From Saccoglossus kowalevskii (Eukaryota; Hemichordata; Enteropneusta; Harrimaniidae): a DNA stretch of 23,919 bases. This document shows positions 757 through 21,261 of this stretch, in pieces. The notes under the pieces are model-generated. The model was not told where the DNA came from. It did no database searches and was given only the letters and a program-made list of their open reading frames with translations. Within the stretch, counting starts at the first letter, position 1; every line of letters begins with the position of its first letter. The stretch covers positions 134,612 through 158,530 of the forward strand of contig NW_003122930.1 in the NCBI RefSeq assembly GCF_000003605.2. The letters are read 5' to 3'. Position numbers and translations under genes: made by a program.

Positions 757-2025
757 AGATTGCTTCGGACCAAAAAAGTCGGTTTGAGAAAATAACACCT
801 AAATATATATAATATGGCACCACTATGATTCGTTCCCCACCGTAAGTCCATTTCTCATTTTTTGAAAGTTGACCCCCCAGCTTTGAATACAATCACTTTA
901 GATTTACATAAATTTACAATTAGTTTCCACTTATTACAATAAGAACTCAATGTGTTAGAGTGTCGCTGTAAGCCAATGACAGTGTCAGAAAATAAAGCGA
1001 CATCATCTGCAAAAAGCAAGCACATAATTTCAACTAGATCAGGTGAAAGTTGTATGCCCCTCTGAACCCCAGAATGTAACTCGCGTGCCAATTCATTTAT
1101 AAAAAAGGAAAACAAGAAGTGGCTAAGTACAACCCTGACGCACACCGGTTGGGCAGTTAAAATATTCAGTACAACTAGTGATAGACGTGCGCACGCACAA
1201 CTTGACATCTTCATTCATAGCATAAAGCATTTTGAACATTTTACCTGTAACACCACCCCTCAGAAGAATATACCACAATCGTTGGTGTTCAACAGTGTCG
1301 AAGGCCTTGGAAAAATCGACAAATGCGCAGTAAAATTCTCCACGTTTTTAGACAGATATTTTTTAATATCGCACTGTAAAATGAAGATACTGTCAACAGT
1401 TGAATAACCACCACAAAAACCTTTCCGAAGGCCTCCGAACAGAACTCGAGACGTCGGTTAAGAATAGACGTGAATATTTTGCTAAATATACTTAGTAGAG
1501 ATATTCCCCTGTAATTGTCGGGTCTGTTCAGTGAACCTTTTTGTGAAGTGGTACAATGGTAGCCCTTGACCACCGCTGAGTAAAAATAATTGAATCAAAT
1601 AATCTGTTAAATAACACAATTAAGTACGACAAAAGATAATCTATATTCGATTTAAAAAATTCCCCTAATAATCCATCCGGTCCGGGTGATTTGCCATATT
1701 TTAACTTGCGAACCGCTACTATAATTTCATCAGCCAAGATCGGACTATTTAAAAACTTTACTTCCGACTCTACACCAGAAGAAATATCAATACTGTTAAT
1801 TAAATTTAAAAACTCGTCAGAAGGAGGGAAATCATCCTATCCTGGTGGATCACAGGGAGTAAATAATTTACTAAAATAATCAAACCACTCATCAGGTTGG
1901 ATAGAGTTAATACTAACAGGTACGGACGATAAACGTCGCAAAATGCTCCAGAATTTTTTTGAATCTTTCAATCCCAATTCAGTCCTTTTTTCACAGAAAA
2001 AAGGCAAGTTTTTTTCTCTCCACAC
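757..2025 (-). pseudogene. LINE ORF2 linker and reverse transcriptase, frameshifted
   Basis: The linker at 1837-2025 has FWSILRRL and WFDYFSKLF, typical of the stretch before a LINE RT. The RT starts at 1528-1737 with LKYGKSPGPDGLLGEFFK and TIVPLHKK, then changes frame into NYRGISLLSIFSKIF (1440-1573). Motif A (VDFSKAFD) is read at 1297-1320. The motif-B region has PTGVRQG, then a frameshift into LSHFLFSFFINEL. Motif C is LFADD, with the FADD codons at 1002-1013, so the catalytic Asp pair is intact. One more frame change near 855 leads into EKWTYGGERI and YLGVIFS, ending at a TGA near 757. The domain copies the element's RNA at the nicked target. At least four frame changes make this copy non-functional. 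The family is clear; the exact clade is not. Confidence 0.9.
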
Positions 2026-2105
2026 ACAAGTTTAATTTTGTTTTCGCGGCGAATCAATGCTATTATTAACTCTGAAATTTCTCAACAACTTATACTTCCC
2101 ATACT

Positions 2106-3557
2106 TCAAAGCTTCAAAGATGGCTGACTATGATAATGTGATACATTTTCTGGTGCCCGCCGACCCATTCCACACAAATCAGCTGTCCTAGTAAAGATAT
2201 TACTCATATTATAAACAAAATTAGAAATGTCATAATTTGGGTCGGAAATAAAGCTGTCAAGACCTTTGTCAACTAAACTAGATTTGAGTTTGTCGTTCTT
2301 TTCTTTACTCAGTAACCAAATGTAACGTTTTAAAACTAATTCATTTGTTTCATGCTGGGTAGTAGCCACATTTGGTACACTGGCATTTATTGAAAAAGAC
2401 AAAGGAAGTTGATCGGAATCCGTACGAATACCAACTACAAAAGTGGACAACGTTGTAAACAAAATAGAGGACATAATAGTATAATCAACCACGCTGGGAC
2501 CCGAATTGGCGATGCAAGTAAATTCCCCGTGCTTGGCATCCTCGCCAAAGCGGCCATTTATAATATGCAAATTAAACGTACAACACACGGAAAATAGCGA
2601 CCTCCCGAAAATGTTACTGTTTTGTCTTTTGAAACTCGTGTTAACGCAAAATCATCTTTGTCATAAAGGAAATCAGAATCAAGCATATATTTCGTATCAT
2701 CATCTATTATATAATCAGGTAATTCGCCAGTTCGAGAATTCAGGTCACCAGTAATTATAATGTAAACATCGTTCAATTTATTTAGATTGTCTACAAGTTC
2801 ATTTTCTAAAAGTTCTAAACCATTTGACGAAGAAAGACTATTATAGATGACTGAATACTGTGGGGCAATATAAATACTACTAAAGAGAACATCTTTATTA
2901 AACCCAAAAATATTTCTATCAAACAAAAGAAATATACAATCATGTAAAGCAGAATTTAAAGAGGGGGGCAAGGGTTATTTTCGTTCAACGTAATTGCAAT
3001 ATTTTTTGTTCGTACAACGTAAATTGAAAAAAATTAACTCCGTAATTCTGCAATCACAGGCTAGACGTACAACGTAATCAATCAATATTTTTTGTACACT
3101 GTGAAAATGTGTCATTTTTCTCGGTACGTGCAAGAATTTACATCCAAATAAAAAAAGTCGTAAAGAATAACCCAGGGAAATTACATTTAATTTCGAAACT
3201 GTAAAACGACTAGATGACACAATTCATTGCAAAATTCAATTTTCACTGTTAACTGTAAAAACGTCTTTTTTTCCTTGTAAATTGTAAAAAAAAACTTTTT
3301 ATTTCCCGTAAAACTGTACCAGCTACCCCTCTTGCCACTCTCTTCAAGCGTTTGACATAGCTGGATAGATTGTTACCCACTATAGTGCAGACACCCCCGG
3401 CGTATCTACCACGTGCAGTGTTGCGTTTGGGGGATGTACTGTAAATTGTAAATCCTGGGAAAGGTTGGTCAAACTGATCATCGTTTTCTGCCCATGTTTC
3501 AATAAAAGATGCTACATAATTTTTTTTTAAATTTAACGAACTAATTTTGTTATTCAA
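2106..3557 (-). pseudogene. LINE ORF2 endonuclease (EEP/APE-like) domain, broken
   Basis: The N-terminal part is at 3330-3557 with LNNKISSLNLKKNYVASFIETWAEN, broken here as LNNKISSLNLKK / NYVASFIETWAEN; the ET is the conserved metal-binding Glu motif of the endonuclease. The middle part (2558-2971) has YIAP and GDLNSRTG at 2726-2752, equivalent to the G-D-F/L-N catalytic motif. The C-terminal part (2106-2588, different frame) has INGRFGED, SVVDY and SDQLPL. In active members the last motif is S-D-H-x-P-L, so the catalytic His is Gln here (codon at about 2409-2411). The domain nicks target DNA to prime reverse transcription. It is disabled by the nested insertion at about 2961-3332, at least one frameshift near 2580 and the His change. 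Confidence 0.85.
2961..3332. mobile_element. Nested AT-rich insertion inside the LINE endonuclease region
   Basis: LINE-like coding stops at about 3332 and resumes at about 2971. The sequence between is unlike the LINE. It is AT-rich and contains the motif TACAACGTAA at 3013-3021 and 3069-3077 and TTCAACGTAA at 2984-2993, plus many TTTACAGT-like words. Its outer ends are G-rich in inverted orientation: GAGGGGGGCAAGGGTTA on the plus strand at 2961-2977, and AAGAGGGGTAGCTGGTACAG on the minus strand at about 3314-3333. This suggests a short nonautonomous DNA element with degenerate terminal inverted repeats. I found no clean target-site duplication, so a satellite-like insertion is possible. Confidence 0.45.
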
Positions 3558-4142
3558 ACCTTGAACATTCCAAGTTTGAAAAGTTATTATGTTTGGGCCA
3601 AGGCCACACTCCTAGTTTGTTATGTTTGTCCTGGCGTTTTCTTTTGTGCCTTTCTGTGCCGTGTTTTTGGCCCTTGTAACTCTGTTATTTTCTTTGTACT
3701 ATCCATTTCTTTCTTCTTATCTATTACAACCAATTTTCCACTTTTGTAATAAGCAATTTTATCTTGTTTCTTATAATCCGTAACGGTTTTTTGTTGTCGC
3801 TTTGTAAGGTCGTTGCCAATGCCGATACCAACCTGTTATGTATAATTTTAAATCGTCTTTTGAGTATGTTCCACTATTCACAATTCTACAAAATGTTAAC
3901 AGTCTATAGCCAAGACTGTTTGGATAATAAAAAGCAACAACAAAAAAATTCACTCCCAAGTGCCCACGAACCTGCATCTCTACCTTAAGTTCCGATCTGG
4001 CCGCCAACGCAATCATTTTATCGACCCAGTGGTGAAACTATACGATAACAGGACGCGCACCATTTTTTTGTTCTACTACCTGGTGCTCGATGTGCTCTAA
4101 CTATATCACGAAGTACCTACTGCTTTTTGTTCACATGCATAT

Positions 4143-4930
4143 TCAAAATCGCCAATACTTGCTATTTGCGTTGGTCAACGATTCACCCGGTATCTCCTCA
4201 ATTCCGTACAGCCGAACATTTTCCCTCCGCAGGATCGATTCAGATTTATCTTTAGCATTTTCGACGGTTTCTACGCGATTAAATAATTCATCCAGCTTCA
4301 TAGATATAGAGACCAAGTCTAGAATTACTGCATGCTTACTTTCCTTCAGTTCACGAATGTCCACTTCAACTTTGTCAAACATTTTTTTTAAGTTGAACAA
4401 ACTATGGGCTTATCACTGAACACGTCTCACGTAAATTTGTTTGTTCAGATTTCAGGTCTTGTAACTCATGATGTATGTCTTCCCTCATCTTTTTCATTTC
4501 GTTTAATAGTTCCGACTTCATGGACGACACGGCTTCAATGATATCATTCTCACGGGGACCGGGGTAGAGTTCAATATCACCAGCTAAATGTAACAAGTGT
4601 TCAATACATGGGTTTCTAAACTCGTGTGTTACATAATCAGCAAGAGTAGATGAACGTATAATAACACTGCATAATTGTCAACTCAATTTGCGTAGCACAT
4701 TGTTTAGGCTTTCTGATTTAAAATTTCGAATGCAACTAGATTGGTCTCCTAGGAAGCATAATTGCCCAGATTCTTCTAACCATTTATGACTGAAATCAAT
4801 ACCAAATAGTTACAAATTTGCTCCGCCAACTGTGAGGACAAGCATCGGGATACAAACTTTCAACCGATATGATAGCTCATTTGCATACGACCATCTCGTT
4901 GTTGGACAGTAGAACTCAATACGAATGTCT
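4143..4930 (-). pseudogene. LINE ORF1 remnant with 2A-like motif, coiled coil and RRM-like part
   Basis: The N-terminal part (4600-4930) has a frame with WRDIRIEFYCP, a hydrophobic stretch (CIPMLVLTVGG) and then two in-frame stops, TAA near 4814 and TGA near 4680. The frame from about 4677 to 4402 contains LLHLAGDIELYPGP at 4555-4596. This fits the 2A-like signature D-x-E-x-N-P-G-P known at the same place in several animal APE-type LINEs, except that Asn is Tyr. A charged helix-forming stretch follows, rich in K, E and L (SMKSELLNEMKKMREDIHHE). After a frame break the ORF continues at 4143-4400 with more coiled-coil sequence and the block RRENVRLYGIEE. That block resembles the R-R-x-N-x-R-x-x-G-I-P-E motif at the start of the RRM-like domain of LINE ORF1 proteins. 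These act as nucleic-acid chaperones in the retrotransposition particle. Positions 3771-4016 are further degraded sequence between ORF1 and the endonuclease. Confidence 0.75.
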
Positions 4931-5350: not shown

Positions 5351-5520
5351 CTTACCTATACAAGTTGACGGGGCACGTGCACGACACCAATGCAGACCAT
5401 ACTGACCGGTATACGTCGGTTGGATGCGCGCGCATCTGACCCAGTTTGAGGCCAAACAGATTTATTTTGTAACAAGCTGAACTGCATGAAATCGCCCAAT
5501 GTGCTCGTTGTAGTGCTTAC

Positions 5521-5622
5521 CTTGCCTTCAAGTAAACATACAGCTGCTGGATTTCCAGTGAATGGCTTGTTTGTAAATGCATCGACTGTATACAGGGGCA
5601 GGGTTCTGGTTTGGACAGCCAT
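5521..5622 (-). CDS. PBLD-like: PhzF/PBLD-family protein, first coding exon only
   Basis: Thirty-four codons from an ATG with a good start context (G at -3 and +4) to a strong splice donor, AAG|GTAAGC, with GT at 5520-5519. The exon ends in phase 0. The peptide contains LPLYTVDAFTNKPFTGNPAA followed by VCLLEG. This is the N-terminal signature of the phenazine-biosynthesis-like PhzF fold (V-D-A-F-T, then F-x-G-N-P-A-A-V), found in animal PBLD proteins and bacterial isomerase/epimerase relatives of diaminopimelate epimerase. The animal function is poorly known. The catalytic Glu of this family (S-E-T-A-F) is encoded further on, in an exon I could not find at 1-5520, so the intron must run out of the window or the gene is broken. 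Translation continuing past the donor meets a stop near 5358 and does not look like PhzF, which supports splicing. The intron carries the LINE. A solo-exon pseudogene is possible but less likely given the clean donor. Confidence 0.85.
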
Positions 5623-5625
5623 CAC

Positions 5626-5990
5626 GAAGTTGTATTATTGTGCTCGACGCTGCCTATCAATGTGACTCATCAACCGTGAACATCGCCCGATATCATCGAT
5701 GACATCAGGTCAGGAAACAGGTGAACCCCGGGAAAAATGGAAATAACATTTAAAACACAACTATCGCAACAATACCCATACTATATATGTTTGGTTGACA
5801 CATATACCACAACGACGCGTTGCGTAGCGTAATATTATTAGGGTCTAGTCATTCAATTTCGTTGATTAATTCAACATCATGAAGAATGAGGTAGCAATTG
5901 TGACACGAACAAATGAACCGACAAAATTTTAAAGGTTTATAGATAACAAAAGAAATTCGCAGAAACAATGTATTGGAGCAACAAAGATAA
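5626..5990. other. Upstream region of the PhzF-like exon
   Basis: Likely 5' UTR and promoter of the minus-strand PhzF-like gene. No clear TATA box at a suitable distance, no CpG cluster and no coding frame that I trust were seen. Confidence 0.35.
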
Positions 5991-13700: not shown

Positions 13701-14146
13701 AAAATCCGTAACATATTAAATAATTGAATATTTCATTTGTATTGAAAAAGGGCAGTATCTTGTGGCTGAAAATGGCACGAGCAACCTTTGTTTTAGATGT
13801 TGAAATATCGTCTGTTCCAATTTCATATTTCCCGCCATTTTTTCTTATGCGCTACAACGTTAATTGATTCCATTTTTTTTTAGCCATGATTTAAATTTAA
13901 ACGGACGCGCAGTACAAATGTGCTTGAATCTACTATACATTCATTTTTTTAAAGTCTGAATTGAATAGACAGAGAACCAGAAAACGAAGCCATGTCACAG
14001 CTGCCACGCCGCGACGAATAATAATATGCTGGGGTCTGGGGTCATTATATATCCATCCGCCGTGCGTGTCAAAATACTTGTTCCCAAAATATAAATACCT
14101 AAAAAAGAGGCAGATTCACACAATTGAATGTGTCGTCACAACTCAC
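10796..14146. other. Long stretch without a supported gene, presumed intron of the two-TM protein gene
   Basis: Several short open frames on both strands lack domains and splice support. An imperfect inverted repeat (15 of 17 bases; GCCATTTTAGCTAAATT at 12464-12480 against 12509-12525) and other TTTTAGCTAA words at 12100-12530 suggest a decayed repeat. A TC-run is at 12903-12913. Positions 13015-13240 are richer in G and C, with CCCC/GGGG words, and look like an unnamed repeat. Acceptor-like sites exist on the minus strand (for example near 12773), but none gives a convincing exon. Confidence 0.3.
12464..12525. repeat. Imperfect inverted repeat, 17-bp arms
   Basis: Arms at 12464-12480 and 12509-12525 match at 15 of 17 positions with a 28-base spacer. 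A related word (TCATTTTAGCTAA) occurs at about 12160, so this may be part of a larger decayed element. Confidence 0.7.
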
Positions 14147-14520
14147 TTTCGTCTGTTTGTTTCAGTAATATCCAAATCATCGTCAAAACATTCAAAATCT
14201 TCATCATTTCCAACATGTCCATCTTGTCTCCGATGATTGCTCTCATTGATTTCTTCCTCGCCTTCGACCTCAGACGACTCGATTTCATCACCGGTTCCCG
14301 CCAAGCGTTCCATTTCCTCCTCGTCCGCGGGTACTAATAGTCTCCGCTGTTTCACACACAGTATTAATATTCCGACGGTATACGCCCCTGAAGCCAGCGT
14401 TAAAAACGTACAAGCGACGTAAAGGGTATGTTGCCCGCTAAGATATGAAAATATACACGCCGTCAAAAACAGCGCCGTGGATAAACACGACATAGCACAT
14501 ATTGTCGACGCTACTGCCAT
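14147..14520 (-). CDS. Two-transmembrane protein with acidic tail, first exon
   Basis: An ATG with good context (A at -3, G at +4) opens 124 codons plus two bases, then a consensus donor GTGAGT (GT at 14146-14145). Without splicing the frame would stop at once (TGA at 14145-14143), which supports the donor. Residues 7-27 and 33-56 are hydrophobic and should form two membrane helices with a very short loop. A basic patch (KQRR, 57-60) follows, which by the positive-inside rule puts the tail in the cytosol. Residues 66-119 are strongly acidic (DEEEMERL, EGEEE, DEDFECFDDDLD). The exon at 8440-8497 is phase-compatible as the next one. I do not recognise the family. Its start lies 199 bp from the start of a plus-strand exon, so the two genes probably share a promoter. 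Confidence 0.7.
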
Positions 14521-14719
14521 TATAGAAATTTAAAAGCCCTGTAATTCGCGATTAGCACAAAATAATTCCTCCACAAATTGTCATCGCTTTTAAAAATGCC
14601 TTCTACCAGCTCTGAAAGAAAAATGTAATACAGCATCAGAAAAACGTGTCAATTGATATGCAAATGAGGCTGCGCTGCGATGAAAGATGGTGCCATTGTG
14701 ATAAGAGGTCATCCGTGCG
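14521..14719. promoter_or_regulatory. Putative bidirectional promoter between divergent first exons
   Basis: This 199-bp gap separates two start codons facing away from each other (14520 minus, 14720 plus). It must hold both 5' UTRs and start sites if both genes are real. No TATA box stands out. An upstream out-of-frame ATG at about 14680 on the plus strand would run past the plus-strand start codon. Close head-to-head pairs with shared TATA-less promoters are common in animals; here it is inference. Confidence 0.45.
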
Positions 14720-19622: not shown

Positions 19623-19628
19623 TTTATT
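19623..19628 (-). terminator. Polyadenylation signal AATAAA of the NTF2-like gene
   Basis: AATAAA on the minus strand, 12 bases after the stop codon at 19641-19643. This would make a very short 3' UTR. Confidence 0.6.
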
Positions 19629-19640
19629 ATCGGTACTGGC

Positions 19641-19861
19641 TTAGTTAGACATATCGACATGGGCACGATAAATGCCTTCTACTTTCTTCCAGATAATGAG
19701 ATTGTTGTAAGGTTTTCCCTCGGTCCCATCAGCTTTTTGCCCTTGCAAACTGACGATACAATATGCCATCTCACCATCTGGACTCGTGGAAAAGTCAACA
19801 ATTTCGCTTTTTATGTTTACGGCACCTTCTTCTTTGAATCTCTCGCACGCCTTGACAAGCT
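19641..19861 (-). CDS. NTF2-like (SnoaL/DUF4440-type) protein, exon 2 (terminal)
   Basis: The acceptor TTTCGTCTACAG ends at 19862. The exon starts with AG, which completes a Gln codon with the C left by exon 1, then gives 72 residues and a TAA. It reads LVKACERFKEEGAVNIKSEI, then SPDGEMAYCIVSLQG, then NNLIIWKKVEGIYRAHVDMS. The final block, W-K-K-x-x-G-x-[YW]-R-x-H-x-D-M, is the characteristic last two beta strands of the DUF4440/SnoaL branch of the NTF2-like superfamily. The fold is a cone-shaped alpha+beta barrel that binds small ligands or forms dimers. Function in animals is mostly unknown. With exon 1 the protein is about 124 residues, the normal size of one such domain, with no signal peptide, so it is probably cytosolic. 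The intron of about 1.17 kb contains a MITE. Confidence 0.9.
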
Positions 19862-19949
19862 CTGTAGACGAAACACAAACACTGACATGATAAATACTTC
19901 TATATAAGTTGCACTGTATACAACTGATTTGCGATTCTGACCAATTGAG

Positions 19950-20114
19950 TTAAAGCGGGGGAGTCGTCACCTGCGCATGCGTCAGATGGGCATAGTGTGT
20001 CAATGTTTACAAACAAGCGTCTACTCATGAGCCTTTGCGTTTTTAGCGTGTGTTGTTATCGTTGCTTGGGACTCAATTGCCACGCGTGCGCAGGTGACAA
20101 CCCTCCCGCTTTAA
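19950..20114 (+). mobile_element. MITE copy 2, TTAA-bounded, 165 bp, in an intron
   Basis: Left end TTAAAGCGGGGGAGTCGTCA, right end (inverted) TTAAAGCGGGAGGGTTGTCA. The arms pair over about 32 bases with five or so mismatches and run on into CCTGCGCATGCG and CCTGCGCACGCG. The ends are better preserved than in the copy at 10636-10795, and the interior matches that copy closely. It sits inside the single intron of the NTF2-like gene, opposite in strand to the gene. No coding capacity. Confidence 0.85.
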
Positions 20115-20402
20115 ATATTGTTAGCAATATGTTGCAATCGTTATTTTAATATATCTTATATACGATTGAAAAAATATCGCCTAGAATAAATATTGTTGTC
20201 GATTTTATCTTTCTATCATGTTTAAACTAGATTGCTACACTACTACATTGCGTGTTTGGTACAAAACCACAATTGCCGCGATCAGTCATAGTATGAATAG
20301 ACAATTCATTGATTCAGAATTCAATTCAATTCATAGACAATTATTCAGTTTTTAAGGGTGATGTTTCACATTAAACAAGTATTCACATTAAATATATAGA
20401 TT

Positions 20403-20420
20403 TAATAATAATAATAATAA
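20403..20420 (+). repeat. TAA trinucleotide run
   Basis: A short perfect microsatellite of about six TAA units inside the NTF2-like gene's intron. Confidence 0.85.
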
Positions 20421-21027
20421 TTGGCACGATATTCGTAAAAATCTACATTTCCGCCAAACATCAGTTTAATGGTAACTAATATATCAAACCGATTACTGAT
20501 ATTTCCCTCTATTTCTTAACATACCACGATGTATGCAGTATGGGTAATGGATTTTAAATAAATGGCTATTTTTACCGGACACCGAATGACATGACTGATG
20601 ATTGCAACTGATTCACTTTTAACAAGACAAAGTCACGTATCATGCATGCCTTCACACCAACAAAACACACTGAGTTGTTTCAGTTCATTTGGTAAATAAA
20701 ATAGCAAAGGATGTAGCAACTGATATTTCCCAGGCTACCCTTGCAAAAAGCAGTGACAGATTCAACAAAAAGGGCTTGTCTAACAACACAGTACCCTGGA
20801 TAACTGATATATCACTGGAATGGAAACCTGTCTGCCAATGTTACCGATTGCAATTATGGTATCAATTAAATTGAATGCACGATTACTGGACTAACCAAGA
20901 TTGGGTTGGCAACTGGTGGGATAGAGTGGCATACGATAAAGACTAAATCAAGATATAGGAGGACTTCATCCAACGGAACATCGCTGAACTTGAAATAAGA
21001 GTTAATTTCGGAAATCAAGACACTTAC

Positions 21028-21180
21028 GTTCATGTCCAGTCGCAACGGCAAGTCCAGGGAAGACTGACTTGCAGTCCTCAGTATAACATTGTTTCGCTAG
21101 GGCCTGGTAGTCACCGGAATTGTAGATTCTCTCAATATCTCTATATCTTGAAGTAATTGCATTTTCAGATCACTAGACAT
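21028..21180 (-). CDS. NTF2-like (SnoaL/DUF4440-type) protein, exon 1, with a one-base frame break
   Basis: The ATG at 21180-21178 starts MSSDLK. The frame carrying the family pattern is the next one and reads AITSRYRDIERIYNSGDY, then YTEDC and FPGLAVATGHE, up to a donor C|GTAAGT (GT at 21027-21026). The pattern (helix, then Y-N-x-G-D-[YF], then Y-T-E-D, then P-G-x-x-x-x-G-[RH]-E) is the N-terminal half of DUF4440/SnoaL-type domains. One missing base in the A-run at 21162-21165 (four A, five would restore the frame) separates the start codon from this frame. The exon leaves one base, C, which with AG from exon 2 gives Gln. The two exons thus cover the whole domain with nothing missing. The frame break may be a sequence error, a polymorphism or a true inactivation. 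A stop in the homologous frame just upstream (TGA at about 21172) rules out a simple in-frame upstream start. Confidence 0.85.
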
Positions 21181-21253: not shown

Positions 21254-21261
21254 TATTTATA
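21254..21261 (-). promoter_or_regulatory. TATA box of the NTF2-like gene
   Basis: TATAAATA on the minus strand, 73 bases upstream of the ATG. With the usual spacing of about 30 bases, transcription would start near 21230 and give a 5' UTR of about 50 bases. The position fits the gene well. Confidence 0.6.

Follow-up and report, generated by a model that had tools for sequence, protein, structure and literature searches.

A two-exon DUF4440-like gene of Saccoglossus kowalevskii whose start codon and conserved frame lie one base apart

NTF2-like domains have been described in both catalytic and non-catalytic, small-molecule-binding versions (PMC3924330). Within this superfamily, the closest described systems to the protein considered here are Pfam family DUF4440 (PF14534), the bacterial proteins filed as DUF4440 or 'SgcJ/EcaC family', and the putative ketosteroid isomerase of PDB entry 3hx8. 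The protein is encoded in two exons within a stretch of 23,919 nucleotides of Saccoglossus kowalevskii DNA, referred to as the window, which is part of contig C1572 (205,538 bases). Its joined frame of 120 amino acids matches DUF4440 over nearly the whole profile (residues 5-112 to positions 1-105 of 107, E 1.1e-4) and differs from it in scoring 23.0 bits, short of the curated cut-off of 25.2 bits. Because of this score, and because an exon-by-exon search of the animal's own genome for DUF4440 gave no matches at E <= 0.001, the protein was filed as DUF4440-like. Exon 2 alone scores 13.1 bits against DUF4440 and exon 1 alone gives no match to it, which argues that the two exons form the domain jointly.

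The bacterial proteins and 3hx8 carry the same domain, aligned nearly over its full length. A custom profile, made from nine bacterial loci chosen from 24 plasmid hits together with a stretch of 3hx8 that is 26% identical to the window protein, gives the joined frame 29.2 bits, with an alignment reaching from the third residue to the last. By eye, four of the nine bacterial loci fetched (L001-L004) carry a signal-like N-terminal extension. A search of the PDB at E <= 1 returned two sequences, 3hx8 (E 0.039) and 2mx0 (E 0.97); the latter, 5iep (E 1.4) and a match to Pfam Herpes_UL52 (E 0.18, under its cut-off) were not relied on. The joined protein had no match in NCBIfam at E <= 1, and no relative was confirmed in plasmids at E <= 0.01, in viral contigs (8 pattern matches) or, with a two-row alignment as the query, in other genome contigs (57 pattern matches). 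The window itself revealed no second copy of the gene and no Rfam match at the gathering score, and a term search found no literature pairing DUF4440 with amphioxus. Judged from these comparisons, the predicted product is a small NTF2-like protein that consists of a single domain of DUF4440 type, and the gene is ordinary in kind.

The gene lies on the minus strand, where sequence and translation give the conserved frame as 21169-21028 joined to 19861-19644. Its features are as follows, with L013, L014 and L015 denoting related exons elsewhere in the same genome.

21256-21261, minus strand: TATAAA, possible core promoter, starting at 21261, 81 nt 5' of the ATG; weak alone.
21178-21180, minus strand: start codon ATG in the context TATCAACATGT, reading MSSDLK up to the break, with matching ATGs in L014 (AATCAACATGG) and L015 (MSSDMK).
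21170-21172, minus strand: TGA closing the conserved frame on its upstream side, from frame reading.
21161-21165, minus strand: site of the frame break at about codon 7, comprising the A-run (21162-21165) plus the base that follows it, placed by the distance from ATG to domain in comparison with L014 and L015.
21028-21169, minus strand: exon 1 in the conserved frame (SENAITSRYRDIERIYNSGDYQ... to GHE and the C of a split codon), from the frame and the Pfam and profile matches.
19862-21027, minus strand: intron of 1166 nt, GTAAGT...CTACAG, from splice scoring, with donor and phase as in L015/L013.
19641-19861, minus strand: exon 2 with stop codon TAA at 19643-19641, from the frame and the Pfam and profile matches.
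19623-19628, minus strand: AATAAA, possible polyadenylation signal, starting at 19628.

The TTTT at 21162-21165 of the forward strand reads AAAA on the gene strand. Starting from the ATG at 21180-21178, the frame runs for 27 codons (MSSDLKMQLLQDIE...) and then meets TAG; the conserved frame, beginning after the TGA at 21172-21170, reads SENAITSRYRDIERIYNSGDYQALAKQCYTEDCKSVFPGLAVATGHE up to the GTAAGT donor after 21028. ATG and conserved frame are offset by one base, and from the upstream stop to the domain the latter contains no in-frame ATG. Since exon 1 ends in C (C/GTAAGT at 21028) and exon 2 begins with AG (ACAG/AG at 19861), the split codon is C+AG. The splice matrices behind all donor and acceptor scores given here are approximate. 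With them, the donor falls among the best 1.7% of the 1451 GTs on the minus strand, and the acceptor among the best 1.3% of 1122 AGs. Taken singly, the ATG, the TATAAA, the AATAAA and the base runs mean little, because their chance levels in the window are high: 44% of 30-nt intervals contain an ATG, 57% of 40-nt intervals contain a run of at least four identical bases, and of 100-nt intervals 10% contain TATAAA and 12% contain AATAAA.

Other features of the window were recorded alongside the gene. Within the intron, near the exon 2 acceptor, a segment at 19950-20114 has 33-nt terminal inverted repeats that are 88% complementary and each start with TTAA; in this it resembles a short MITE that targets TTAA. 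The remaining observations concern the minus strand. Broken open frames resembling a non-LTR retroelement extend over 855-4677, and one of the four pieces sent to Pfam matches RVT_1 (E 7e-10), the others giving no match over the cut-off. Just upstream of this relic, 5356-5634 looks like the opening exon of a PhzF-like gene; it matches PhzC-PhzF at E 4.4e-6, and its 26.8 bits fall narrowly short of the cut-off of 27. An open frame of 128 amino acids at 14143-14529, by eye membrane-spanning with an acidic tail, has no Pfam match at E 0.1.

The closest relatives of the gene are found in its own genome. A search of 572 Mb in 4830 contigs with the joined protein at E <= 1 gave at least 12 matches, made up of the two exons of the window, at least nine on contig C2738 and at least one on contig C4724, all these counts being lower bounds. 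Those on C2738 (290,886 bases) form a group of DUF4440-like exons at about 143-246 kb (L013-L017 and L019-L022), six of the nine having an E above 0.001. Among the ten matches listed outside the window, three were strong (L013, 1.4e-13; L014, 9e-8; L015, 1.7e-6) and the remaining seven had E values of 0.004 to 0.63. A second close copy of the window locus was not found in the assembly by this protein search, whose counts are lower bounds. Over the matched stretches, L014 and the gene formed by L015 and L013 show 40-53% protein identity to the window copy. L014 and L015 have the start M-[SA]-[SA]-D-[LM]-K and the exon-1 core R[YF]...GD[YF]...YT.DCK in common with it, and the L015/L013 gene has the same donor, AAC/GTAAGT, and the same one-plus-two split codon; comparison across the intron and to the stop covers L015/L013, the other copies being compared at exon 1 alone. 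Identities at codon positions 1, 2 and 3 were 0.79, 0.85 and 0.55 with L014 (33 codons), 0.65, 0.63 and 0.37 with L015 (43 codons) and 0.61, 0.65 and 0.28 with L013 (72 codons). As third codon positions differ most in all three related stretches, the gene had long been subject to coding constraint, which holds for its past and says nothing about the time since the break.

Six exon-1 stretches besides that of the window were compared (L014, L015, L017, L019, L022 and one inside L021), and in all six an in-frame ATG precedes the codon aligned with Ile5 by 18, 24 or 27 nt, which argues that the break is more than chance. In L014 and L015 this in-frame ATG lies 24 nt ahead, whereas the ATG of the window lies 23 nt before the Ile5 codon. 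The starts themselves are alike: L014 begins MAADLKAT, L015 begins MSSDMKAA, and the window reads MSSDLK up to the break; the leaders of L014 and the window are also similar (AATCAACATG vs TATCAACATG). Given that the ATGs of the relatives are all in frame and that MSSDMK and MAADLK resemble MSSDLK, the ATG of the window is, on sequence comparison, very probably the true start. Downstream of the break, from the first domain codon, the window aligns without gaps to L014 over 33 codons and to L015 over 43 codons, so that family-like sequence flanks the break on both sides, with MSSDLK before it and AITSRYRDIER after it. A matching start before the break, gap-free alignment after it and a distance one nucleotide short together place it at about codon 7, overlapping the A-run. 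Scored with the custom profile, the first eight residues behind the break reach +2.35 bits when read in the conserved frame, within the top 3.1% of 14909 window 8-mers, and -3.0 bits when read in the ATG frame, a verdict that depends mostly on one isoleucine. We are highly confident of the gene anatomy, comprising the structure, the matching start, the frame difference and the in-frame starts of the related copies. The initial annotation, which had described a two-exon gene with an ATG one base out of its conserved frame and a break beside the start codon, is upheld on these points: the offset is present in the sequence as given, read on the minus strand, the splice sites, phase, DUF4440-like match and related exons agree on the structure, and the related exons put the break where it touches the A-run.

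A disabling change in an otherwise conserved frame is therefore present in the assembly as given. In the haplotype as assembled, the gene lacks one base at about codon 7; translation from the ATG would yield about six residues resembling the family, followed by 21 that do not belong to it and a stop, and no domain would be made from this start. We favour the reading in which the base loss is real in the animal and constitutes a recent null allele, segregating or newly fixed, and give it about an even chance; weighed against a sequence error the choice is close to even, and such gradings are estimates, not computed values. A null copy may be tolerable where relatives exist. As to its age, the earlier view of a very young pseudogene in which nothing else has decayed was too strong: among 3000 simulated copies that underwent substitutions only, with no indels, 120 codons stayed free of stops in 47% at 5% divergence and in 12% at 15%, so that stop-free length sets a loose age limit only.

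A sequencing or assembly error, in which the gene of the animal is intact and one base was dropped from the consensus at about codon 7, falls somewhat short of an even chance. All other gene features checked are intact, as an error would leave them, and the absence of further visible damage in the gene suits an error equally well as a null allele. The break also touches the A-run, which the initial annotation had regarded as the typical place for a slip; that argument does not hold, since the run is merely four bases long, runs of this length are as common in the window as stated above, and exon 2 contains four runs of four or five bases, none of them with a break. The A-run is thus no sign of a slip, and the missing base may have been one other than A.

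That the gene is intact after all, whether by starting further upstream in another exon, by using a non-ATG start codon or by ribosomal frameshifting, is very unlikely. An out-of-frame ATG nearby would be unsurprising at its chance frequency, but the matching start codons of the related copies favour the ATG of the window. An upstream exon, which had been named as the finding that might overturn the broken-gene reading, obtained no support in the forms tested, namely acceptor ranks and donor scans over 2.7 and 12.5 kb: the interval from the upstream stop to the domain contains no AG acceptor, and the next one, at 21146, ranks in the top 37%; in the phase fitting 21146, a scan of 10 donors over 2.7 kb gave one weak ATG-bearing first exon (donor score 1.5), and a stricter scan of the 12.5 kb upstream, with 15 donors at a score of 2 or more, gave none. 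Inspection by eye showed no slippery heptamer at the break that could speak for frameshifting.

Exon 1 also contains an imperfect 8-base tandem repeat at 21148-21130 (AGATATAG-AGATATTG), both copies of which encode D-I-E, each in a different one of the two frames. A tandem duplication here, away from the A-run, first seemed a better lesion than the run, because repeats with a unit of 2 mod 3 are rare, occurring in 26 of 3412 intervals of the window and in 1 of 2000 shuffles. L014 and L015, however, align with the window without gaps through this stretch (33 and 43 codons), and since related copies are equal in length there the repeat is no insertion; the conserved-frame residues ahead of it also fit the family better. 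The duplication was accordingly ruled out as the cause by this comparison, and we regard it as hardly credible. Nothing was found in favour of a frame regained by regulated ribosomal or transcriptional slippage at the A-run.

For annotation, the consequence is that automatic gene prediction would probably overlook this gene or cut it short. Should the break be real, as in the favoured reading of a recent null allele, the locus would be a plain and unsurprising case of a duplicated family that has recently lost a gene. The narrower case of a real break that is segregating, as a fresh loss-of-function allele of a gene standing apart from its cluster, is improbable; if true, it would make gene loss observable in a living population.
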